From: Owenia fusiformis
Lineage: Eukaryota; Annelida; Polychaeta; Sabellida; Oweniidae
Assembly: GCA_903813345.2 (NCBI GenBank)
Contig: CAIIXF020000009.1
Span: 11,464,030 to 11,528,029 of the forward strand
Reading direction: 5' to 3'
DNA length: 64,000 nucleotides
Shown: positions 4,903 through 60,455 of the stretch, piece after piece
Layout of the letters: every line of letters starts with the position of its first letter
How positions within the stretch are numbered: position 1 is the first letter of the stretch
The notes under the pieces: generated by a model
What the model was told of the DNA's origin: nothing
Databases searched by the model: none
The model's input: the letters and a program-made list of their open reading frames with translations, nothing else
Made by a program: the position numbers and the translations under genes

Positions 4903-5354
4903 TGTCTGAATTCAGACAGAAACATTCCTTAGCTTAACATATAGTGTATCTTACACTTGAATATTCTGTGTCTGAATTCAGGCAGCGACTTCCTAATCTA
5001 TAAGAAACCTAAATTTTCACTGTCTGAATTCAGACACAACTTGATAATAGTAAGATGAATTTGTTTATCTCTTGTGTCTGAATTCAGACACAGGCTTTTC
5101 CATATTAGAAAACAGAAGCTGATTTCAACTGTCTGAATTCAGACACAATTTGATAATAGTAAGATGAATTTGTTTATCTTATGTGTTGTGTCTGAATTCA
5201 GACAATGGAAATCAGTATCAATTTTCTCAGATTGAAATCTTGTCTGAATTCAGACACATAAACAAATTCATCTCACTATAATGAGACTGTGTCTGAATTC
5301 AGACATAGGCTTTTCCATGTTAGAAAACTGATTCAACTGTCTGAATTCAGACAT
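4903..5354. repeat. Array of 16-bp palindromes, array 1
   Basis: Nine copies of the perfect palindrome TGTCTGAATTCAGACA (one has GGCA at its end) start at 4903, 4969, 5021, 5075, 5130, 5189, 5241, 5290 and 5339, a spacing of 49-66 bp. The spacers are related to each other: the spacers after 5021 and 5130 share a gataatagtaagatgaattt string, and the spacer after 5241 carries the same sequence reverse-complemented. Each palindrome contains an EcoRI site. Function unknown; it could be a satellite from a mobile element or an array of dyad-symmetric protein sites. Confidence 0.9.
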
Positions 5355-13653: not shown

Positions 13654-15055
13654 CACGCCTAACCATCGACAACGTACAGTGACAAAATATACCATTGCAC
13701 ACTTTATATTGTACAGTGTCACTAAAAACTGATGATGCAGGTGTGATGTAGGTTTTCAAAAATTAATTTTGGGAATACTTGAAAGATTTCAATTTCATCT
13801 CCAACTTTTAGCTTTCTGATTACATTAAAAGATTTAAAAGCAATGCTTGATTTTTTCCTAGTTAGTCTATCAACAAAAATTGAACGGTTGGAAAATGTTG
13901 GGTTTTTCAGATTACCTTTGATCATTTTTTCTCCTGTCGCCTAAGAGTGTCATTTATTTTTATGAGAATATGTTTCTCTAAACTACACAATTTAAGATGA
14001 GTGAAGATTTGATAAATATTATGTATTGGGTGTAATTTTAAAAAATCAGAAGAGTAGTTGTCAACTCCACTGAAGGGTGTTAGTGTAAAATGTAAATGAA
14101 ATTCACGAGATGTTATATTGAACAATGCAATAATTAAACAAGTTATGTTTAAGGAACATGTTCAATAATCCCCAATACAGATGTTCTAAAGTTAAGGTAA
14201 ATTTGATTTTTAAATCTTGTTGAATGTTATTTCATTTTATAAAAGTGTTGGTGTGGTGATTAATATGTGACCATGGGGTGTTAGCCTCTTACCCTTTGAT
14301 CACTTGACATCTGTACTTTAACGTAATAAGAAACACTTTTATGAATTTTAATTATCTTAAGAAGTTGATAGAGAGATTTATACTAGCTAGTCGAAGATGA
14401 CTTTTTAAAATCCTCTTTATGCTATATCTGGAAAGTGTTGAGGTTCAATACAATGGTTCAATCAAGTAATACTGTGATTGTTAAGCTTCAGTTTGAAATC
14501 AATCTGATCCCCCTGCCCATTAGTGTTATTAAAAATATGTTGTCAGGGTTAACTGTGAATTCAGATATGTAAGTTCGTTGAGACAACGTACATCAAGATG
14601 ACAAGGCACATTCGTAATTTTCTGATTTTTATTATTTTAACAAAAACATGAATATTTATTACATTTTCAACCGACCTTAATTGTGTAACTTAAGGAAACA
14701 TATTCTCATAAAAATAATTGACACTCTTAGGCGACAGGGGGAAAAATGATCAAAGTAAATGTGAAAAACCCAACATTTCCAACCGATCATTGTTTGTGGT
14801 TAGATTTACTATGAAAAAAATCGAGCACTGCTCGAAAATCTTTTAACATAATCAGAAAGCTAATGGTTTTCCTAATCGAATACACACAAAATTAAGCATG
14901 AAATTCTTTATGCATTCCTCAGATTAATGTTTAAAACCTACATCACACCTACATCATATCTTTTGCTTCATATCAGTTAGAATAGTGACACTGTACATCA
15001 AAAGTCTACGGGGGTATATTTTGTCACTGTACTTTGTCGATGATCAGGTGTGATT
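13654..15055. repeat. 1.4-kb element with about 350-bp inverted arms
   Basis: The left arm, about 13654-14000, and the right arm, about 14695-15055, are reverse complements with moderate divergence. Landmarks in both are tacagtgacaaaatata at the outer end, aggtgtgatgtaggtttt, and gtcgcctaagagtgtca near the inner end. The spacer of about 700 bp has no long open frame. This is the structure of a foldback or long-TIR non-autonomous transposon. Confidence 0.7.
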
Positions 15056-15422: not shown

Positions 15423-15871
15423 TGTCTGAATTCAGACACCTTATTTCAGTTTTATAGATTGTTGTCTGAATTCAGGCACCTCATTCAAGCTTAGTTAAGT
15501 GTCTGAATTCAGACACCATTTTTCAGTTTTAAAGATTGTTGTCTGAATTCAGGCACCTCATCCAAGCTTAGCAAAGTGTCTGAATTCAGACACCATATTT
15601 CAGTTTTATAGATTGTTGTCCGAATTCAGGCACCTCATCCAAGCTTAGCAAAGTGTCTGAATTCAGACACCATATTTCAGTTTTATGGAATGTTGTCTGA
15701 ATTCAGGCACCTCATCCAAGCTTAGCAAAGTGTCTGAATTCAGACACCTTACTTTAGTTTAAGAGAATCTTGTCTTTTTAAATTAAAAATGTGTGGGCAT
15801 GTCTGAATCCAGACACATATTTTCCCATACTAAGAGTTGCATAGAGTAAAACATCTGCCTGAATTCAGACA
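15423..15871. repeat. Array of 16-bp palindromes, array 2, with 77-bp higher-order unit
   Basis: Eleven copies of TGTCTGAATTCAGACA or a one-to-two-base variant begin at 15423, 15463, 15500, 15540, 15577, 15617, 15654, 15694, 15731, 15800 and 15856. For the first nine the spacing alternates 40, 37, 40, 37. Copies alternate between the perfect palindrome followed by a ttttcagtttta spacer and a variant ending ttcaggca followed by a catccaagcttagcaaag spacer, so the real repeat unit is 77 bp. The same palindrome forms array 1 ten kilobases upstream. Confidence 0.92.
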
Positions 15872-22038: not shown

Positions 22039-22232
22039 TGCCGTATACTACCTACCCATTGAAGAGATCAAGAACGGTAAAATCTCAGGAACTGGCCATG
22101 GGATATACGGAGAAGTCTTTGAAAATCCAAATATAGTACAAGGCCGAGTAGGGGGTGGACTATCGCTGGATGGAATAAACCAATATGTTAAGTTGAACAG
22201 CCCGACTGTAAACCTGAGAGAAACATGTTTTG
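22039..22232 (+). CDS. Gene A exon A1: LamG domain, first part
   Basis: The exon follows gataag-free acceptor ttggatag and ends at ttttg|gtaagt. It encodes YYLPIEEIKNG, then IVQGRVGGGLSLDGINQYV and TCF, typical of the first strands of a LamG_3/concanavalin-like fold. Start phase 2, end phase 1. It corresponds to B1 at 46975-47162, and a stretch of about 50 bases through ggccgagtagggggtgg is identical in the two genes. The acceptor has a modest pyrimidine tract; the position is fixed mainly by alignment with B1. Confidence 0.85.
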
Positions 22233-23110
22233 GTAAGTATGAATATTTTTATTTATCTGACTGGTTCTATTTGAATTGTCCCCAAGTTGAGGAAAAATTC
22301 AAATATTTTCCAATAGTCCCTCCTTCAAAAAAGATTCCGCATTCACAATAGAATACTATTAGAAAATCACCGTTCGCACGGAAGCCAATGTAAATGGTGA
22401 ATTTATAGAGTGTGTATGGAAACTCATTCTCGAAATTACAAGAAGTAATCCCTATTCACAATTTGAATTGACCAAAATCTTACAAAAATGTGCTACATTG
22501 CAGTTGCACCTCCTCCAAAACACAAATAGGAAGACCTGTGTGAATGCCCTGGATTCACTGTAGCCGTTTAATTTCTTTAATTTAATGAATGTCCTGTTAT
22601 ATTGTGAACGCAAACTCTCATTTATGGAACATACGATTTACAGTAAATCAAGTCAGTGATTTCAGACTTTTTGTATTCTAATTGAAGTTTATTTAAATCT
22701 CCTGTGCTAGAAAGTAGTTTTATTAGTTTTGGAAATTGAAAATATTGGTTTTACATCTTAAAAGTACATGTAGGTAGTCCCATGTTGTGAATTTAGATAC
22801 TTACTAAGAGGTGTTCAATATGATTCTTATTCTGACTGTTGGGAATGTGTTTTGTCCTATGTACTTGATGTGATACTTGCTACAATTTGTCTTCCAAATT
22901 ATAATTTTACCATTTCTATTGTTCGTTTTTTTATAATAGCATCAGATGGCAGAAATTCGTCAATAATGTACATCAAACAACGCATGATAATAAAGATATT
23001 TATATCAATTCAATGTTTAATATTGCAAATTGGAAGGCTGGTATAACTGTTAGATTAATATGTAAATTTATTAGTGACCATTTGCATGAATGATGTCAAT
23101 TGTGTTACAG
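22233..23110 (+). other. Intron A1-A2
   Basis: It starts with a gtaagtatg donor and ends tgtgttacag. Its first 50 bases resemble the start of the equivalent gene B intron, where the same sequence has expanded into a satellite. No other structure seen. Confidence 0.7.
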
Positions 23111-23413
23111 GGGATCTCGATAGATGTAACAATGGAGCAACACTTTCATTATGGATAAAATTAGGCCAGAAGGATTCTTCAAACATGTACTACTTCTCTA
23201 GTGGAGGACAAACGAAATATTCACACGGTATAGCGGTACTCTGGAAAGACGGGAGCCTCCTTGCTTGGATGAGTAGCACCACGAAATTGTGGAAGACATC
23301 TTGGGATTGGCCAGAGAAAGGAAAATGGTACCATCTTGTCTTAGCCTGGGATAGGGACCAAGACGCGATGCAATTCTATGTTAATGGAACGATGGTTCAT
23401 GAAAATATCGCAC
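23111..23413 (+). CDS. Gene A exon A2: LamG domain, core
   Basis: The exon encodes the core of the LamG/ConA-like fold: GATLSLWIK, SHGIAVLWKDG, DWPEKGKWYHLVLAWD and FYVNGTMV. It begins after gtgttacag in phase 1 and ends at gcac|gtgaga in phase 1. Reading through the donor meets a stop five codons on, which supports the splice. The donor is shared with B2 (gaac|gtgaga). Coding similarity to B2 is very high, including silent sites. Confidence 0.93.
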
Positions 23414-24053
23414 GTGAGACAAATCTTTAGTACTCTGATTTTATATTTGATTGATGTTATTTCTCATTTGTTTACTCATTGTTAGTGACAATAAGTTAAC
23501 TTAAAACATGTTTTAATGTCATTACTCTATGAAGATTCTGAATTAAGCATTAAATTCATAAACTGTACATTTGGTGTCGAAACGGTACGGTATTCGATGT
23601 CGGAACTGCGTTGTACCTTCGGTGCAGAAACGGCGCCCAGTTTCGGTGTCGGAACGACACCGAAAGAATTCAGTGTCAGAAATTCAGTGTCACAATTCAG
23701 GAATGGTGCCGAAACGGTGTTCATGTTTAGGTGCCCGGAACAGCATCAAAGTGTTGGCTGTGTATGTTTTTTATGTTATACAAATGATACCTTTCATTAT
23801 CAATACATATTTCTCTCACTAAACAATTATTTTTTTAAAATATTGAATACTGTCATGGTCATGTTAAAACAGAAAATGAAGGCAATCCCAAATATACAAT
23901 AGTGTTATGGAACCGTCTTAGTTTTGTAAATAAAAATACCATTTTTGAAGTCTGTCGCAGTCGATGAGTTAATAGAAAGAGTTGGATTGAAATTCTGTTG
24001 CTTGATCGATATTGAGCATTAAACCTGAAAATTTTATTTTTTAATTTTTTCAG
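23414..24053 (+). other. Intron A2-A3 with GC-richer repetitive patch
   Basis: Between 23572 and 23735 the sequence is unusually GC-rich for its surroundings and made of imperfect copies of a ggtgycgraacgg motif, in both orientations (for example tcggtgtcgg aacgacaccg). The remainder is AT-rich intron ending in a T-rich tract and ttttttcag. The open frames across the patch do not look like protein domains. Confidence 0.6.
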
Positions 24054-24221
24054 CTGAAACAAGGAGTGATCTATCAAATCAGTACAATGACATCGTCCTC
24101 GGAAGGCCAAACAACAATGCTTTAAATGCATTATATGGGGAAGTAATCGTCGATGAACTCATGTTTTGGGATACACATCATGACTCTGAGTTTTCTAGAA
24201 ACCTTTATAACATGTATTCGG
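24054..24221 (+). CDS. Gene A exon A3: LamG domain, last part
   Basis: Phase 1-1 exon of 56 codons between tttttcag and a tcgg|gtacgt donor. It encodes YNDIVLGRPNNN, then YGEVIVDELMFWD and LYNMYS, the C-terminal strands of LamG_3 (a GxxxxDExxxW-like signature). Matches B3 at 50837-50995 but is clearly more diverged than the A2/B2 pair. Confidence 0.93.
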
Positions 24222-24604
24222 GTACGTGAATCATAATCGCTGTAATGAAGGAATTCCTTTATATAAATTGAAATCGAATGATAGTTTTACTATATCAATT
24301 GAAGCTACCACAATAGCCTTGCTTTATAACTGTGAACCCCCTTATCTGCTTCTCCAACACAACACAAAGTAGAGTAGATAGGAGGAGGGTCCAGTTTCTT
24401 AAAGCGAGACCACTACCACAAATGCCAAATTCACGAACAAGTGATGCTTGTCAAAGTTTATTATAATGAAATGGTATTTTATCACTAATACTGTCTAATC
24501 AAAGGTCAATTATCGATGAGTTTAAAGTTAAACTTATAACCTATGAAGTTGTTAAAAGTTGAAAAAATGTTATGAAAAAGAAACAAGATGATGGAAACGG
24601 GAGC

Positions 24605-25249
24605 ATGCAATTTAAATTCTAGATTTGGAAGTGGACTCTACCTTTCACACCCAGCGGCTGCTACAATATTCCCCTGACTAACCCAAATATTGTTCATGTA
24701 ATTTAAATTCTAGATTTGGATGTGGACTCTACCTTTCACACCCAGCGCCTGCTAAAATATTATCCTGACTAACCCAAATATTGATCATGTAATTTAAATT
24801 CTAGATTTGGAAGTGGACTCTACCTTTCTCATCCAGCGGCTGCTTCAATATTACCCTGACTAACCCAAATATTGATCATGTAATTTAAATTCTAGATTTG
24901 GAAGTGGACTCTACCTTTCACACCCAGCGCCTGCTAAAATATTATCCTGACTAACCCAAATATTGATCATGTAATTTAAATTCTAGATTTGGAAGTGGAC
25001 TCTACCTTTCTCATCCAGCGGCTGCTTCAATATTACCCTGACTAACCCAAATATTGATCATGTAATTTAAATTCTAGATTTGGAAGTGGACTCTACCTTT
25101 CTCATCCAGCGGCTGCTTCAATATTACCCTGACTAACCCAAATATTGATCATGTAATTTAAATTCTAGATTTGGAAGTGGACTCTACCTTTCACACACAG
25201 CGCCTGCTACAATATTACCCTGACTAACCCAAATATTGATCAATCAGAC
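24605..25249 (+). repeat. 91-bp tandem array of truncated exon-A4 copies
   Basis: Seven units begin with atg-aatttaaattctag at 24605, 24696, 24787, 24878, 24969, 25060 and 25151. The spacing is 91 bp for the first six intervals; the last unit is 99 bp, ending in an 8-base addition. The eighth, at 25250, runs into the true exon A4. Every unit carries the acceptor ttctag and about 60 bp matching the start of exon A4. In the exon frame this reads TLPFTPSGCYNI, TLTNPN and then a stop in the next atttaa. The units have one extra base near the start (gaagtgg versus gaattg), so they cannot enter the gene frame. Sub-types alternate (ctcatccagcggctgcttcaa versus cccagcgcctgctaaaa). Confidence 0.93.
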
Positions 25250-25267
25250 ATGTAATTTAAATTCTAG

Positions 25268-25552
25268 ATTTGGAATTGACTCTACCCTACACACACAGCG
25301 GCTGCTACAATATCCCCCTGATTGATCCAAATATTGTCGAACTTACCGTTGACACTGGAAGTACTGAATTAGAAGACCCAATATACACGTGCTATGTGAA
25401 AGCCTTGAATAATGGCATGAAAGAATTTGCATTAAGGAAACGACAATGTTACGTGAGGAGAGGTAACATTTCGAGCACGATTGATTGCAGTAGTGAAAAT
25501 GAGTGCAATGGTATTGGGACTGATAATGTCGATGTGTATGAGATACATACAG
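25268..25552 (+). CDS. Gene A exon A4: cysteine-rich module
   Basis: Phase 1-1 exon of 95 codons. It reads DLELTLPYTHSGCYNI at its start, then PIYTCYVKALNNG, QCYVRRG and NECNGIG. The spacing GCY...C.VKA...G...F.....CYV resembles the small Cys-rich modules (WSC/apple-like) that precede lectin domains in invertebrate mosaic proteins, but I cannot assign a named family. B4 is its counterpart and is five codons longer. The acceptor ttctag is the same as that copied seven times upstream. Confidence 0.88.
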
Positions 25553-34289: not shown

Positions 34290-36383
34290 TAAAGGGTGAC
34301 GCATATCGTTTAGCAAATCGAACGCTCGTTTCTGGTGTTGCTCACCGTTTAGTATAAAAGGCCCGATCCCGGAATAATACTCAAGGGTTCACAGGCTCGA
34401 GGTCGTTGTGTCAACACCTCTAACTGTTATATAGCATAAGTATATTATAGATCGTCACATATTTATAAAACGGTGATTTTTATTTTGACAAATCAATTCC
34501 ACATTTATGGGTGAAGTTTCTGGATCTTCTATTTGTTTATAATAAGGAAAATTGACATCTAAATTCCCCCACAACGTAATAGCACACAGCTTGGTATATG
34601 AAATATCCTACAAATGAAACAAAGCAGTTCTAATTCAAGGATTTATATTGGCTGTTGTACATATTCTTTGAACGCAATCACTCTATGGATAATGTTTTCA
34701 AAATCATTATAAACGGATTACTTTATCTCAAAGACAATTTCAATAAACTGGATTTTACAGAACTCCCCTTATTTCTTAAAAATGGACTGATCCAGTCGAT
34801 TCGCCTGGAGCCGCCATATTGTTTTTATACGGAATGCTTATCGGAACCCTTTAAGGAGAGACCATGAGACGCGGAATAACATTCAATAAGCCGAGCAATT
34901 AAATGTGTACATTTAAAGTTGTACTAAAACCAATTGAAGAATCTCTTATTTTCTTCTTTTTAGCACAAATAGCATATCTTTTGTTATTTGGACTACAAAG
35001 TTGTGATATTTCCCCACACAACACGATTTATTAAGATAAGACTGTCAACCTCTGAAATGTTGTTATTTTTGCGAACTTCTTAAGGTAACCTGACCATGAG
35101 TACCGTGTACCGTGTTGTTGCAAACTACTACGAAGGCTGAACCAAAGTAAAAATATACATTAGTTCCAAATTCGCACGCATATAGCCACATAAATATTTC
35201 TAATTCATTGAACTTCACAAAATGAAATTCTTGAGGAACGAGCAGTGCAATATTATTCATTACATATACAAGGAATTGATTGAAATGCATTTGTGAAACC
35301 GTATACCGACAACTGATATTGTTAACCCAAAAATTATATTTAAAAAAATTGGCCTTACAGCATTACGTTCGGGTTAAAATGTTTTAATCTCCAAACACTG
35401 ACAGTGTTTGCTATTATATAACGTACATGCTTTTAATAGCGTTTCAGCTCGATTGATTCCGCAGTCAGTTGCAAGTGATATTATACTCTTTTAATTACTC
35501 GAAATTGATGAGAATAGACTCAATCGTGCAAAAATCGATTCAACATGAGAACGAATAACTCGTTTTTGAAAGCCAGGGTTCCATTCATTATATCTACAAA
35601 ATCGTATTTCGCGGCAAATTGTTTCAACCACACACGTCATGTCACGTGACGTAAAAGTTCTGCTCTGAAAATGAAATCAGTTTTGCCGCGAAAACAGACA
35701 CGTGCTGACTTTATATCCCCGATATCATGATAAAATGGAATTGTCGATGGTTCATCATCGTAAAGTGTGGCATTCATTCGGTAAGATGGCATAAATATAT
35801 CTAAATCTAGTCAAATGGTTTTTGTAAATCTTTAAAGGGACTCGATAAGCTTCCCGTATAAAAACAATATGGCGGCTCCAGGAGAGTCAACTGGATCAGT
35901 CCAGTTTGAAGAAATGAGGGGAGTTTTGTAAAATCCAGTTTATTGAAATTGTCTTGGAGATAAAGTTATACATTTATAATGATTCTATAAACATTATTCA
36001 GAGAGTGATTTTTCAAAGAATGCATGTACAACAGCCAATATAAATTCTTGTATTACAACTGCTTTGTTTCATTTGGAGGATATTTCATATGCCAAGTTGT
36101 GTACTATTACGCCATGGCGTTTAGATGTCATTTTTCCTGATTATACACAAATAGAAGATCCTGAAACTTCACCCATAAATGTGAAATTCATTTCTCAAAA
36201 AAGTCTCCCTTTAATAAATGCGTGATGATCTATGATATACTTATACTATATAACAGTTAGAGTTGTTGACACAACGACCTCGAGTCTGTGAACCCTTGAG
36301 TATTATTCCTGGATCGTGCCTTTTATACTGAACGGTGAGCAATACCAAAAACGAGCGCTCGATTTGCTAAACGTCACCCTTTA
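34290..36383. mobile_element. 2.1-kb element with about 570-bp terminal inverted repeats
   Basis: The left arm (34290-34862) starts aaagggtgacg and the right arm (35826-36383) ends cgtcaccctt. The arms match almost throughout, with shared strings such as tcaagggttcacaggctcgaggtcgttgtgtcaac-type sequence, acttcacccataaatgtg and gtacaacagccaatata. The spacer of about 960 bp has no transposase. It sits inside intron A13-A14 and ends 30 bp before exon A14. Confidence 0.85.
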
Positions 36384-46974: not shown

Positions 46975-47162
46975 TGTCTCATACTATGCCCCCATGGAAG
47001 AGATCGGGGGTAATATAATCCCAGGAACTGGATTATACGGAGAAGTCTTTGGAAGTCCAAGTATAGTACAAGGCCGAGTAGGGGGTGGACTATCGCTGGA
47101 TGGAATAAACCAATTTGCCAACTTGTACGGCTCAACTGTAGACCTGAGACAAACATGTTTTG
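46975..47162 (+). CDS. Gene B exon B1: LamG domain, first part
   Basis: Start phase 2 after catcttctcaaacag, end phase 1 at ttttg|gtatgt. Encodes YYAPMEEIGGN, then SIVQGRVGGGLSLDGINQF and TCF. It aligns with A1 throughout and is two codons shorter. The downstream intron begins a satellite array at its very first base. Confidence 0.92.
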
Positions 47163-49330
47163 GTATGTATAGTTACCTTTATTTACATGATACTGGAAAT
47201 GGAATGCTCATATAAATGCAATATCATGTAAACATGCTAAGTATGTATTGATATCTTTAATCACATGATATTTGAAATGGACAGATAATATTAATGTAAT
47301 ATCATGTAAACACGTTACGTTTGTATAGATTCCTTTATTCACATGATATTGGAAATGGAAGGCTGATATGAATGAAATATCATGTAAATACGTTACGTAT
47401 GTATAAATACCTTTATTTACATGATATTGGAAATGGAATGCTCATATAAATGCAATATCATGTAAACACGTTACGTATGTATAGACACCTTTATTTACAT
47501 GATATTGGAAATGGAATGCTCATAGAGATACAATACCATGTAAACATGTTACGTATGTATAGATACCTTTATTTACATGATATTGGAAATGGAATGCTCA
47601 TACAAATGCAATACCATGTAAACATGTTACGTTTGTATAGATATCTTTTTTCAAATGATATATTGGAAATGGAAGGATAATGTTAATGCAATATCATGTA
47701 AACATGTTAAGTATGTATAGATACCTTTATTTACATGATATTGGAAACGGAAGGCTCATATGAATGCAATAATATGTAAACAGGTTAAGTCTGACTGATA
47801 CCTTTATTTACATGATATTAGAAATGAAAGGCTCATATAAATGCAATATAAAGTATACATGTTAAGTATGTAAATATACTTTTATTTAGATGATATTGGA
47901 AATGAAAGACTCATAGCAATGCAATATAATATAAACATGTTAAGTATGTATAGATATCTTTATTTACATGATATTGGAAATTGAAGACTCGTATCAATAT
48001 CATGTAAACACGTTAAGTTTGTATAGATGTATCTATTTACATGATATTGGAAATGGAAGGCTCGTCATAAATGCAAACGCCATGTTAATATGTTTTGGTA
48101 TGTATATATCTAACTTTATTTACATGATGTTGGAAATGGAATGCTCATATAAACACAATATCATGTTAACATGTTGAGTATGTATAGAAACCTTTATTTA
48201 CATGATATCGGAAATGGAAGGCTCATATAAATGCAATATCATGTAAACACGTTGAGTATGTATGTATGTATACCTTTTTTACATGATATCGAAAATGGAA
48301 GGCTAATATAAATGCAATATCATGTAAACATGTTAAGTATGTATAGATACCTTTATTTACATGATATTGGAAATGGAATGCTCATACAAATGCAATACCA
48401 TGTACACATGGTAATTATGTATAAATATCTTTATTTACATGATGTTAGAAACGGAACGCTCGTATAAATGCAATAACATGTAAACATTTGTTGGTATGTA
48501 TAGATACTTTATTTACATGATGTTGGAAATAGAATGCTCATATAAATGCAATATCATGTACATGTTAAGTATAGATATCTTTATTTCCATGATATTGGAA
48601 ATGGAAGGGTCAAATAACTGCAATATCATGTTAACATGTTAAGTATGTATGTATATCTTTATTTCCATGATATTGGAAATGGAAGGGTCAAATAAGTGCA
48701 ATATCATGTAAACATGTTAAGAATTTATAGGATATCCTATGATTTTGAGGAATATTATTTTTATCTACGAGGTGATATTGATATCTGCACGAGAGAGCAA
48801 AGCGAACGAGTGCGTATATCAATATCACCGAGTAGATTAAAATGATATTCTGAAAAAAATCATAGGATGTTCTTATTATCCTACACTTACAAGGAGTGTA
48901 CTAAATGTATGATATCATTGCAATAATGAATTCCATGCCAAATAGAGTCAATTTGGCGGGAAATCAACAAGCGGAGTATATCGTCACAATATCCTCCGCC
49001 AGGAGTATATCATCACGATATCCTCCGGTTATTCATTTTGCCAATAAATATCAAATTTATTTTTTGATGTTATTATACATTTAGTACACTAAGTGTAGGA
49101 TAAGTATAGATATCTTTATTGCAATGATATTGGAAATGGAAGGCTCATATAAATGCAATATCATGTAAACACGTTACGTATGTATAGATACGTTTTTACA
49201 TGATATTGGAAATGGAATGTTCATATAAATACAATATTAAGTACACATCTCAAGTATGTATAGATATCTTTATTTCCATGATATTATAAATGGAAGGGTC
49301 ATATAAATGCAAATATCACGTAAATATTCC
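47163..49330. repeat. 78-79-bp satellite array starting at the B1 splice donor
   Basis: Units of the form gtatgtatagatacctttatttacatgatattggaaatgga-aggctcatataaatgcaatatcatgtaaacatgttaa (quoted loosely in parts) repeat about every 78-79 bp, roughly twenty times to 48721 and about three more times after an insertion. The first unit begins with the B1 donor, and units include the preceding acatgtt of the exon; some, for example near 48095, even keep tgttttggtatgta. The same intron in gene A has one unit-like stretch only. Confidence 0.92.
48722..49100. mobile_element. Composite inverted-repeat insertion inside the satellite
   Basis: The array is interrupted between taag (48718-48721) and taag (49101-49104), a possible 4-bp target duplication. 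The left part is a hairpin with atcaatatcacc / ggtgatattgat arms around a gagcaaagcgaacgag loop and outer arms ending in ataggat. The right part has tatcctacactta and taagtgtaggata ends with tttagtacact arms. It may be one element with complex ends or two side by side. Non-coding. Confidence 0.7.
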
Positions 49331-49362
49331 TGGTCATATGCATAGTGTTGGTCGTATTGCAG

Positions 49363-49671
49363 GGAATCTTGATAAATGTAACAAAAATAATGGAGCAACA
49401 CTTTCATTATGGATAAAAATAGGCCAGAAGATATCTTCGGACATGTACTACTTCTCCAGTGGAGGACAAACGACCGATTCACACGGTATAGCGGTACTCT
49501 GGAAAGACGGGAGACTCCTTGCTTGGATGAGTAGCACCACGAAATGGTGGAGGACATCTTGGGATTGGCCAGAGAAAGGAAAATGGTACCATCTTGTTCT
49601 AGCCTGGGATGGGAACCATGAGGCGATGCAGTTCTATGTTAATGGAAGGATGGTTGATGAAGATAACGAAC
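49363..49671 (+). CDS. Gene B exon B2: LamG domain, core
   Basis: The 103-codon phase 1-1 exon encodes GATLSLWIKIGQK, MYYFSSGGQT, SHGIAVLWKDG, EKGKWYHLVLAWDGN and FYVNGRMV. Acceptor gtcgtattgcag, donor gaac|gtgaga. It is six bases longer than A2 owing to an extra Asn/Lys pair after the first Cys. Confidence 0.93.
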
Positions 49672-50995: not shown

Positions 50996-53585
50996 GTATG
51001 TACATACACGGTAAAATGCACTGTAAAATAAACTGAAATTTTTAGGTTAAAAATACACTAAAATATTCTGACTTTTAAGGACATTTTAAGTATAAAAAAA
51101 ATACTTTAGCACAAATAAAAATAATGTCATTTAAAATTCACCCTAGACAGGATTTCCAAGGCAATTTTGCATTTGGAGGAGATTATGATACCTGGTTGCC
51201 CCGGTATACCTGATCATTTTAATAAATTGACTACATTGGTGATAGTTTTTTTGCATGTAAAGTTATTTTGACCCAGTTTTGAGATATCCGTCTCCAAAAA
51301 GTGGGTTTGCAATAGTTTTCCAAATTCGAGGTTTGAGGTAACACATCCTCAGGGTTCCGAATCTGACATCGAATTCAAATTCGTCTTCCAGTTAAGATTT
51401 TACGCCATTTTATAAATTTGGAAGTTGCGCCTGCCAGTATCTAAATAAAAAAGCTGAATCAAAAATACTTTCACCAATTCTTGCCTACCTTCAGGTAGTG
51501 CTTACCGACCTAAGACTTGTCTAAATGTCTTCTGGCTGACTCAGTTTAAAAAGTCTAAAATCTGGAACCTTACCATTTTAGTTAGTTTACTTTCTTTCAT
51601 CAATATATTTTTACACAGTTTGATTGTCTTTAGAAAGGCTTATACTACAATTTGATTAAACCTACATTTAATGAAAACAAGAACATCTTTGAGATGAACA
51701 ATGAAAGCCCCTCATAAAAGTATTGTTATGCCACTATGTTTAAGTAGAAGCTTCGGTACAATTAAAATCAACACTTGTGGAAAGCAAGAATTGTGTAGAA
51801 ATGAAATGAATATAGATGGTTATGCTCCAATACAAGCGATTCTTTGATAGATTTCGTAGAACTGGATCTCGTTATCTTAATTATGTACAGAAAACATTGG
51901 TATATCTTTCAGTATGTCATTTATACTTTAAAATTATGTATTTGAAATTCAGTCTATTATTAGTATATTAGTCAATATATTTTTCAGTACATCTTTGTAT
52001 CAAAAAATGTCCTTAAAACGTACGTACTTTGTATTGAAATTAGCTCCTAAAAATCAATATACTTTTAAGTAAAATTTTGTACTTAAAAGAATACATAGGT
52101 TTTGCAATTTTAATTTTCAAAATCTAGATTTTTGAGTAAAACAATAATGCAGATTTTAAAGGACTGAGAAATATAAAGCCATATTTTTAATCGAATCTTA
52201 GTAAACAATGATTAGTGATTCCTAGGTTAAATAAAATAAATATACTTTTCAGATGATGGTCTATAGTGCTACGGCCAAGACGATTTGTGTCCAAAACACC
52301 TAGATTCAATTTGACTTTAGATTCTTGTAGGGGACCCCAAGGCAAGTAAAAAAAAGTTTGTGAACCCTTGCAAAGCAGGCTCAAAAGTGCTGAGTCAGCA
52401 AATTTTATCATTTTCGAGTCGGAGTTTGACCATATGCTTGAAACTATTTAATATCTCATTTCAGGATGTTGCAATTGTAATGAAACATTGTTAGTATATC
52501 AATAAGGCATGTATGAAGAATTCCTGAAAGTTTGGGTCTTATCCAACAAAATTTGGTAGAGATATGGGATAATTTGTCCCTAAAAGTACATAATTTCTTC
52601 TCAAAATTTCTTAATCAGTCGATAGTTAATCAGTCATTTAAAAAACAGTAAGAGCCTATGGTGTATAAAACCTGATTAAAAACTTCACTGATGATGTTAG
52701 CAAATATTTCCTGTAAGTTTCAATAAAAAGTGCATGCATCTATTTTTCTGATTTTTCTCTTAACCTTCCCTTAAAAATTCAAGAAAGGGGGCGTGGCACC
52801 TTACACTTCAGTTGTTGAATTTTTTGCTAGGGTCAAATAGAAAATACGTATCATTATAGCAAAAAGTGTTATTCTAAATAAATCTTAACACAATATGTGA
52901 CATCATAATATGCTAAACATATTCATTATCTATCAATTTATATTTTTTACAGCTTATCATTGCCATAAACCATAAAACCATTTAGGGCATGTGTGGTCAG
53001 CAATTGGAAATACATGTATGTGTACTAATAACATTTTTCAAAACTGTATTTCGGGTGCCATTCTTTCCAACTGTTGTTCATGTAGTTATAGTTTATGTTT
53101 ATGAATGATAGCACTTCCCATCATAGGTTTGGCAACTCAAACCCCTTTGAATCACTTCACTTATTAAAGTCTGTTTATTTTTGGCATATGAAATCGAAGT
53201 ATCTGAAATACGGTAATAAAGAACATAATCAAGTTTTAAACATTGACAGACTTTGATATCCTATCATATAATAACTTCCAGTTGCCAAATTTATGGAGGG
53301 GTGTACATGCTTTATAGTATAGGGTCCATGTAAACATGTAAACTGCAACGGGACCCCTATTGTTGCTGCAAATAATTAGCTATATAATAACAAATTGTAA
53401 CACTACAAATGATTAAGAGCCAGAGTTTCTCAGAGCCTGGTTGCAGTTTGCACACTTCGTATTGTATATATGTCATAAATTGTTTAGTTGTAGTCTGTAG
53501 AACATAACAAGATGTGTATGTTTTGTTTATGTCAAAATAATACATCTTGTCCATAGGCTTAGCCAGTGGGTGCAATGGGATCGCA

Positions 53586-55760: not shown

Positions 55761-57209
55761 GAATATGTTGGCCTTAGGACCAAACTCGCGTAATGTCACA
55801 TATCATATAAGTAATGTCAACAAACCCAGTGCCACGGAATTGATCACTGTCTTTGAGAGAATGTAAAGCACTATTATTTCCTTTGGCTTCAGATTTCTAC
55901 AACTAAACAATTTATGACACATATAATATTTATACACCCCTCTATAAGGTTGGCAACTGCAAGTTTTCATATGATTACATATTAAGGTCTGTCAATGTTT
56001 GAACCTTGATTTTGTTCCTTATTGCTTTATTCCAAAAGCTTGATGTCTTGTTTAAAATTTCCAAACAGCATGACAAGCTTTAATAAGTGATTCAAAGGGG
56101 GACTTACAGTTACAAAACTTATGATGGGGAGTGTAATATAACATATTATCATCATAATTCATTCTTAACATACCATAACTACATGAACAACATTAGGATA
56201 GAGTGGCATCTGAAATACAATTTTGAAAAATGTTTTAAGTACACATACATGTATTACCTATTGCTGACCACACATACCCTAAACGGTTTTATGGGGTATG
56301 GCAATGATAAGCTGTAAAAATATAAAATGGTAGATAATGAATATGTTTAGCATATCATGATGTCACATATAGTGTTAAGATCTATTTAGAAAAACACTTT
56401 TTGCTATAATGATACACATTTTCTATTTGACCCTAGCAACAAGTTCAACAACTGAAGTGTTATGTGCCACGCCCCCTTTCTTGCAATTTTAGGGGAAGGT
56501 AAAGAGAAAAATCAGAAAAAATAAATACTTGTACTTTTTATTGAAACTAATTCAAGAAATATTTGCTAACATCATCAGTGAAGTTTTTAATCAGGTTTTA
56601 TACACCATAGGCTCTTACTGTTTTTTAAATGACTGATTAACTATCGACTGATTAAGAAATTTTGAGAATGAATTATGTACTTTTAGGGACAAATTATCCC
56701 ATATCTCTACCAAATTTTGTTGGATAAGACCCAAACTTTCAGGAATTCTTCATACATGCCTTATTGATATACTTACAATGTTTCATTACAATTGCAACAC
56801 CCTGAAATGAGATATTAAATAGTTTCAAGCATATGGTAAAAGTCAGACTCGAAAATGATAAAATTTGCTGACTCAGCACTTTTGAGCCTGCTTTGCAAGG
56901 GTTCACAAACTTTTTTTTACATGCCTTGGGGTCTCCTACAAGAATCTAAAGTCAAATTGAATCTAGTTTTGGACACAAATCGCCTTGGCCGTAGCACTAC
57001 TACTTCTTATTTCATTAAACATTCTGAAATCACTGTAATTACAGAATGGGGTCGGATTGGACACTCCCATATCATCTTATGTTATAAAAATTAAGGAGCA
57101 AAAGACTTTAACCTTTGGAGACAAAGGTAACTACGTCTATGTTAATACAATGCAGATGATTTCATACAGAGATCATTTCAACCCAGACTTTCTTACTTCT
57201 TACTTCCAG

Positions 57210-57509
57210 ATGGTGGATTCACACTTCCATACACACACGATGGCTGTTACGGATCTCAATTGACCACAAACCCAAATATTGTCCGACTCAGTAATACTGA
57301 AGATGCAAGCGTAGCAGAACAAGTAGAAGACCCAATATACAAGTGCTATGTGAAAGCCCTCAATGAGGGTAAAGAAGCATTTGGAATAGAGGAGAGACAA
57401 TGCTACGTTAAAGAAAATGACACTGTTAGTTGGACAAGTGTTAGAGGTCAAATAGCAAACTGCAATGGGATTGGACTTGACAGTTTTGATACATATATCA
57501 TGCACACAG
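57210..57509 (+). CDS. Gene B exon B4: cysteine-rich module
   Basis: 100-codon phase 1-1 exon, acceptor ttacttccag, donor cacaca|ggtatg. Encodes DGGFTLPYTHDGCYG, PIYKCYVKALNEGKEAFGI, QCYVKEN and NCNGIGLD. Counterpart of A4, without the upstream array of truncated copies. It begins 207 bases after the 4.7-kb element. Confidence 0.9.
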
Positions 57510-59708: not shown

Positions 59709-60455
59709 AGGTACGATATTGTCGTCAGCTTGACGGGCGGGCGGCGGGCGGGCGGGCGGCGGGCGGCGTCTCACTTTTCAGCTTGTCTACAGGTTTCCAG
59801 CCAAACCATTTGACAGATTCATCTGAAATTTTCAGGAATGTTTCTACGTATCAAAGTTAAGAATTGATTAGTTTTTGGGCATTCTGGGTAAATTTTAAGG
59901 TGGCCATTTTGGATTTTCCGTCCTAAAATCTTCACTTTCAAGACTTGTCTAAGGGTTCCAGCCAAACCATTTGACGGATTCATCTGAAATTTTCAGGGAT
60001 GTTTCTACGTATCAGAGTTAAGAACTGATTAGTTTTTGGGCATTCTGGGTAAAATTTAAGGTGGCCATTTTGGATTTTCTGTCCTAAAATCTTCACTTTC
60101 AAGACTTGTCTACAGGTTTCCAGCCAAACCATTTGACGGATTCATCTGAAATTTTCAGAAATGTTTCTACGTATCAGAGTTAAGAACTGATTAGTTTTTG
60201 GGCATTCTGGGTAAATTTTAAGGTGGCCATTTTGGATTTTCCGTCCTAAAATCGTCACTTTCAAGACTTGTCTACAGGTTTCCAGCCAAACCATTTGAGG
60301 GATTCATCTGAAATTTTCAGGGATGTTTCTATGTATCAAAGTTAAGAACTGATTAGTTTTTGGGCATTCTGGGTAAATTTTAAGGTGGCCATTTTGGATT
60401 TCCCGTCCTAAATTCTTCACTGTCACACTGCTGTGTTTTAGGTACGATATTGTTC
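59709..60455. repeat. Four tandem units of about 160 bp with shared end motif
   Basis: ggtacgatattgt occurs at both ends (59710-59722 and 60441-60453). Inside, units containing ccagccaaaccatttgac-gattcatctgaaattttcag and aaggtggccattttggatttt recur near 59785, 59947, 60106 and 60265. The left end includes a cgggcgggcggcgggcgggcgg tract. An interspersed repeat in intron B8-B9, non-coding. Confidence 0.85.

Follow-up and report, generated by a model that had tools for sequence, protein, structure and literature searches.

The original paper on mirages is said to have appeared in Nucl Acids Res in 2002, and the human gene IFI6/6-16 reportedly holds a minisatellite with a short unit that multiplies splice donor sites. 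In the available text of two reports, mirage is the name given in lancelets to tandem copies of intron-exon boundaries, with both 5' and 3' boundaries affected (PMC3087553), and mirages are reported for the lancelet globins BflGb6 and BflGb9 and for Adh3 and TnC (PMC3087553, PMC3902484), along with a similar though less perfect case in PGBD5 (PMC3902484); the cases called mirages there have cephalochordate hosts. In the BflGb6 mirage, as far as that text describes it, each repeat joins the 3' end of an intron to the 5' part of exon 2; many, but not all, units retain splice signals, two haplotypes have 6 and 3 units, identity is 81-100%, and edge units escape homogenization (PMC3087553). The same sections report that lancelet mirages leave normal splicing undisturbed (PMC3087553, PMC3902484) and that those of Adh and TnC make no aberrant mRNAs (PMC3902484), and they suggest that new introns may originate from mirages (PMC3087553).

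Human genes provide further repeats of this sort. The available portion of the report on ABCA7 describes a variable number tandem repeat (VNTR) in intron 18 whose repeat includes the real splice site, with a C-rich unit of 25 bp in about 12 to 427 copies; the donor copy located one unit downstream, when used, gives an out-of-frame transcript, and VNTR length at the splice site is reported to affect the splicing of neighboring exons (PMC5954066). For genes in human segmental duplications, the accessible part of another report states that minisatellites in recently duplicated paralogues can change splicing and create introns when they lie at exon-intron boundaries, and that half of these internal tandem repeats sit in coding exons (PMC2812944).

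We analyzed a stretch of DNA of 64,000 nucleotides, hereafter the window, in which genes A and B are paired exon by exon, with at least 10 exon pairs among the matches listed in the translated comparison. The tandem array of 7 copies of the intron 3/exon A4 junction directly 5' of exon A4 was confirmed as real. It lies at the 3' end of gene A intron 3, which extends from the donor after position 24221 to the acceptor G at 25267, and TRF placed it at 24604-25336 with a period of 91, 8.0 copies, and a score of 1177. Splitting the array at the motif catg[c/t]aatttaaattctag delimited 7 units spanning 24604-25248, with lengths of 91, 91, 91, 91, 91, 91, and 99 bp (Table 1), each composed of 19 bp of intron end with ttctag and about 70 bp of exon start (71 bases of U1 were aligned to exon A4). 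The ttctag splice acceptor is kept in all 7 units, as a sequence-only reading had claimed in describing 7 truncated exon copies, each with an acceptor of its own, and the true exon as the last unit of the array, which is indeed the eighth copy, combining the real intron end with the start of A4. The 91-bp unit given in that reading applies to 6 units, with U7 being longer, and its figure of about 60 exon bases has to be raised to about 70. A 21-mer across the A4 acceptor has 8 exact occurrences in the window, and the same 21-mer gave 0 matches in 100 shuffles, even with 3 mismatches allowed. Through its 8 extra bases (25241-25248), U7 gains another CAG, which ends at 25247 and lies 20 nt upstream of the real acceptor. 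RNA folding of the array revealed nothing special (z -1.59; 2 of 20 shuffles folded at least as well).

Table 1. Positions of the exons, junction copies, and donor-type repeats within the window
Feature	Position	Strand	Description
Exon A1	22039..22232	+	5' part of LamG region; pairs with B1; donor gtaagt
Exon A2, Laminin_G_3 (PF13385)	23111..23413	+	Pairs with B2; Pfam E 1.4e-13 for ORF 23059-23430
Exon A3	24054..24221	+	Donor cgg/gtacgt after 24221, phase 1; frame open A1-A5, aligned to B
Unit 1 (U1)	24604..24694	+	Decoy acceptor G 24622; upstream array edge
Unit 2 (U2)	24695..24785	+	Decoy acceptor G 24713
Unit 3 (U3)	24786..24876	+	Decoy acceptor G 24804; same sequence as U5 and U6
Unit 4 (U4)	24877..24967	+	Decoy acceptor G 24895; 1 difference vs U2
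Unit 5 (U5)	24968..25058	+	Decoy acceptor G 24986
Unit 6 (U6)	25059..25149	+	Decoy acceptor G 25077
Unit 7 (U7)	25150..25248	+	99 bp; decoy acceptor G 25168
Eighth copy	25249..25338	+	True 3' end of intron 3 with acceptor G 25267, joined to the first bases of exon A4
Real exon A4	25268..25552	+	285 bases; tblastn to B4 region 43% over 129 aa, E 1e-24
Donor-type counterpart, gene B intron 1	47151..48730	+	78-bp units, about 20 copies; TRF score 1944, 20.3 copies
Further donor-type copies near end of gene B intron 1	49104..49324	+	TRF 76 bp x 2.8
Paralogous exon B4	57210..57509	+	One acceptor; array absent 5'

Assigned by structure, the A4 array would be an acceptor-type mirage, a repeat type already described in lancelets; it is ordinary as a kind and an unusually clean specimen. 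As in lancelet mirages, each unit spans an intron-exon boundary, and the units stand beside the real junction as the eighth copy. Like BflGb6, the array keeps the splice signal (in 7 of 7 units here and in many there) and is homogenized inside, with distinct edge units. It differs from BflGb6 in its unit of 91 bp, compared with 150-160 bp, and in a gene family other than globins, and from the lancelet mirages in one +1 frameshift that is common to all 7 units. The GC content of the window is 33.5%, below the approximately 41% of Branchiostoma. Mirages would gain a wider known range should the animal prove not to be a lancelet. Among the human systems, the ABCA7 VNTR resembles the A4 array in having a real splice site within the tandem repeat, but it duplicates the donor and is closer to the array that we describe below for gene B. 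The IFI6/6-16 minisatellite likewise reportedly multiplies a splice site, although it is the donor that is multiplied and the unit is short. With the repeats of segmental duplications, the A4 array shares its position at an exon-intron boundary of a paralogous gene, whereas its units lie in an old intron common to both paralogues.

Splice sites and phases of exons 1-5 agree between the 2 genes, and exons A1-A5 and B1-B5 encode 384 and 386 residues, respectively, with 0 stops. A Laminin_G_3 match extends over exons 1-3 (gene A: E 1.4e-15), and exon 4 had no Pfam match over a curated cut-off. The dN/dS values between A and B were 1.45, 0.6, 0.14, 0.42, and 0.22 for exons 1 to 5, with that of exon 1 giving no signal of constraint and being based on few changes only. 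Separately, dS was 0.14 and 0.15 for exons 1 and 2 and 1.1 to 2.0 for exons 3-5 (22039-23413 vs 46975-49671); the low dS of exons 1-2 is probably due to gene conversion or to the 5' part having been duplicated separately at a later time. Rfam gave 0 matches in the window at the gathering score, and the PDB search returned 3 matches at chance level (E 0.5 to 0.65). No relative was identified in viral contigs searched with the B4 reading frame, the 21-mer, and the B2 exon protein or in bacterial and archaeal contigs searched with the B2 exon protein, and tblastn confirmed none of the peptide-pattern matches (9 viral with the B4 frame, 1 viral with B2, and 26 prokaryotic with B2). Bacterial-type signals, which are not meaningful in an animal gene, comprised 2 promoter-like sites vs 6.4 expected and 0 terminator-like sites vs 1.0 expected.

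The comparison with gene B also gives the direction of copying. Genes A and B have intron 3 in common, with identical position and phase, and the B4 acceptor is single, with a long pyrimidine tract and 0 repeat matches for its span in the 60-bp boundary survey. Because gene B has the same intron and no array before B4, the exon came first and the +1 base is derived, which bears out the claim that the exon was copied into the array. Further, A4 and B4 align without gaps over their first 41 bases, and the units have 1 base more than exon A4, so that the extra base arose in the units. Joining the donor at 24221 to the acceptor at 25267 gives the open frame of exon A4, and joining it to a decoy acceptor leads in 7 of 7 units to a frameshift, reading DL[E/D]VDST..., with a stop after 19 codons (junction codon counted); the +1 base and downstream in-frame stop noted earlier are thus found in every unit. 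The extra CAG at 25247, if used, would lead to a stop after 2 codons. U2 and U4 still contain a stop each when read in the own frame of exon A4. All 7 units encode TNPNI, as does B4, and exon A4 reads IDPNI; the founder copy is therefore older than those changes of exon A4, and since the array preserves an older state of the exon, the founder is not brand new.

We compared the units with one another and with the exon. U3, U5, and U6 share one sequence, a single difference separates U2 from U4, and U1 and U7 are separate types. The block U2U3 differs from U4U5 at 1 of 182 bases and represents a recent two-unit duplication; the earlier proposal that an alternation of sub-types arose by repeated two-unit duplications is sound for this block, but the strict alternation is confined to U2-U5. 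Differences from exon A4 number 11 in U1, 12 in U7, and 15-16 in the middle units, indicating concerted evolution inside the array that spared the edge units U1 and U7, which are closest to the exon. Of the 20 columns that vary among the 8 copies, just 1 lies within columns 1-26 (P 0.005, for a segment picked after looking). This low variation could reflect constraint on the acceptor, but the 7 units alone give 1 of 11 variable columns in that segment (P 0.12) and a longest invariant run of P 0.51. None of the 12 differences between U7 and exon A4 lies in the first 26 columns (P 0.013), and U1 has one there.

Acceptor strength was scored with a matrix of 15 local sites from both genes (A7 left out; A8, B7, and B8 not placed). 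The real A4 acceptor scored 3.57, compared with 4.63 for 6 decoys, 2.24 for that of U1, and -0.96 for the extra CAG. Out of 46 AGs in gene A intron 3, 7 outscore the real site, namely the 6 decoys and an AG at 24284 (4.58), and across the window 341 of 3125 AGs equal or exceed the score of the real A4 acceptor, with 4 of 15 real acceptors falling below it in leave-one-out scoring. By these scores and ranks, the real A4 site is therefore unremarkable to weak and holds no local advantage over the decoys. Leave-one-out scoring also exposed 2 misfits, the acceptors of A1 (a bad -10.49), whose start had been set by comparison with B1, and B5 (-5.73); these 2 acceptors fit the matrix badly, and the starts of both exons are therefore uncertain.

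We identified tgactaac in each unit, with 7 of the 8 plus-strand copies in the window falling in the A4 array. The motif sits in the exon-derived part of the unit, and its taa doubles as the stop. In 6 of 7 units, 32 nt separate its branch-point-like adenine from the next decoy acceptor downstream; in U7, the adenine lies 40 nt before the real acceptor, with the extra CAG in between. Judging from the motif, tgactaac might act as a branch point. The intron sequence upstream of the first decoy (24622) lacks such a motif, ctaac being absent from 24401 up to the array. The best donor-like site in the units, cat/gtaatt, had a mediocre score of 4.34 (real donors: 2.08-11.31 in leave-one-out scoring), exceeding 3 of 15 real donors (2.08, 2.23, and 3.39). 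Potential cassettes would be 83 nt long in U7 and 75 nt long in the other 6 units, with an in-frame stop in all 7. Of the effects suggested by the sequence-only reading, frame-shifted transcripts and slower splicing are hypothetical, and the idea that the array serves as a seed for new exon variants finds little in these data, with every unit frameshifted and stopped and a donor-like site of that quality.

A donor-type counterpart was identified in intron 1 of gene B (Table 1), where the first unit begins within the final 12 bp of exon B1 and repeats the B1 donor site. Past the real B1 donor and up to 49300, there are 18 gtatgt copies, 3 of which repeat gtatgtatgt out of register; scores reach or exceed that of the real B1 donor (6.06) in 7 of the 18 and lie at 3.66-5.13 in the other 11. 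Gene A intron 1 has no array in the TRF listing. The survey of exon boundaries with 60-bp spans, covering 32 boundaries of 16 exons (A7, A8, B7, and B8 left out), found tandem copies in the adjoining intron at 2 boundaries, the A4 acceptor and the B1 donor, and 2 more short matches at the A9 donor and the B6 acceptor (19 and 14 bases, respectively) look like chance. The donor-type array in the sister gene means that the process is not confined to the A4 junction, and the presence of 2 junction arrays within one window may be chance.

The structure of the array, the direction from exon to array, and the +1 base and stop common to all 7 units are thus observed features of the locus, and we consider it probable that the A4 array is a mirage minisatellite that arose by tandem duplication of the junction, spread by unequal exchange, and is mostly ignored by splicing. 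One segment over the intron 3/exon A4 junction, with 19 bp of intron and about 70 bp of exon, would have been tandemly duplicated; an early copy would have gained the +1 base, and its descendants would have multiplied by one- and two-unit unequal exchange, with the real exon staying in frame at the downstream edge of the array. The spliceosome would mostly ignore the decoys because a weak acceptor alone defines no exon, and only the last copy has the full exon and a good donor (25552), which would also be why the array is tolerated. Any use of a decoy would place a stop ahead of exon junctions, so that the mRNA is expected to be removed by nonsense-mediated decay. The array most likely does little and is a by-product of unequal exchange seeded at the junction. 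Against the decoys being ignored, 6 of 7 outscore the real acceptor, and the local sequence gives no reason for their losing; the intact state of all 7 acceptors and the possible constraint on columns 1-26 across the 8 copies also count against it.

An alternative is a copy-number rheostat, in which the decoys or 75-nt poison cassettes would be used steadily, lowering the productive splicing of gene A according to the number of units. The acceptor and the branch-point-like actaac present in all 7 units, the donor-like site at the end of each unit that exceeds 3 of 15 real donors, and the stop-containing cassettes are consistent with it, and the effect of ABCA7 VNTR length on splicing, as given in the available text (PMC5954066), is a partial human parallel; however, lancelet mirages are reported, in the text at hand, not to disturb splicing (PMC3087553, PMC3902484), the branch-point role is a motif match alone, and the first decoy has no such motif upstream, and we regard a rheostat as unlikely. 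An elaboration, which we hold to be quite improbable, would make each unit a poison module consisting of a weak acceptor, a stop, an actaac for the next acceptor, and a weak donor, with copy number determining what fraction of gene A transcripts goes to decay, mirrored by the donor array in gene B. Tandem repeats are often mis-assembled, and the draft-genome copy of the BflGb6 mirage was apparently assembled aberrantly, according to the part of the report available (PMC3087553), but the units differ in an ordered manner, those at the edges are distinct, and U7 alone has extra bases, all of which argue against an assembly artifact with a lower true copy number or mis-stacked units, which seems very improbable here; the copy number of the A4 array may be wrong, and its existence being an artifact is unlikely. 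The row of acceptor-bearing copies before exon A4 also recalls tandemly duplicated alternative exons, in use now or recently, yet each unit covers only some 70 bases from the start of the 285-base exon, all 7 are frameshifted and stopped, and the stops of U2 and U4 in the own frame of exon A4 add to this, making such use extremely improbable. Since all 7 units are truncated, frameshifted, and stopped, intact alternative exons are ruled out. The shared position and phase of intron 3 in both paralogues likewise rules out intron gain by tandem duplication.

The natural series of near-identical acceptors before one exon offers a ready test of how the spliceosome chooses among equal 3' splice sites. 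With an acceptor array in one sister gene and a donor array in the other, it is evident that both ends of an intron can give rise to such arrays and that a gene can carry one while its exons 1-5 remain open.

Other repeats were also recorded in the window. A tandem array of 162 bp x 4.1 lies between the paired exons B8 and B9 (59771-60425), and TRF identified arrays with the palindrome tgtctgaattcagaca at 15423-15775 (77-bp period) and 5021-5186 (54-bp period). Translated self-comparison further revealed large inverted repeats at 34300-34874 / 35806-36380, 52253-53352 / 55880-57010, and 13655-14050 / 14621-15051, which are possibly transposable elements or foldback structures.
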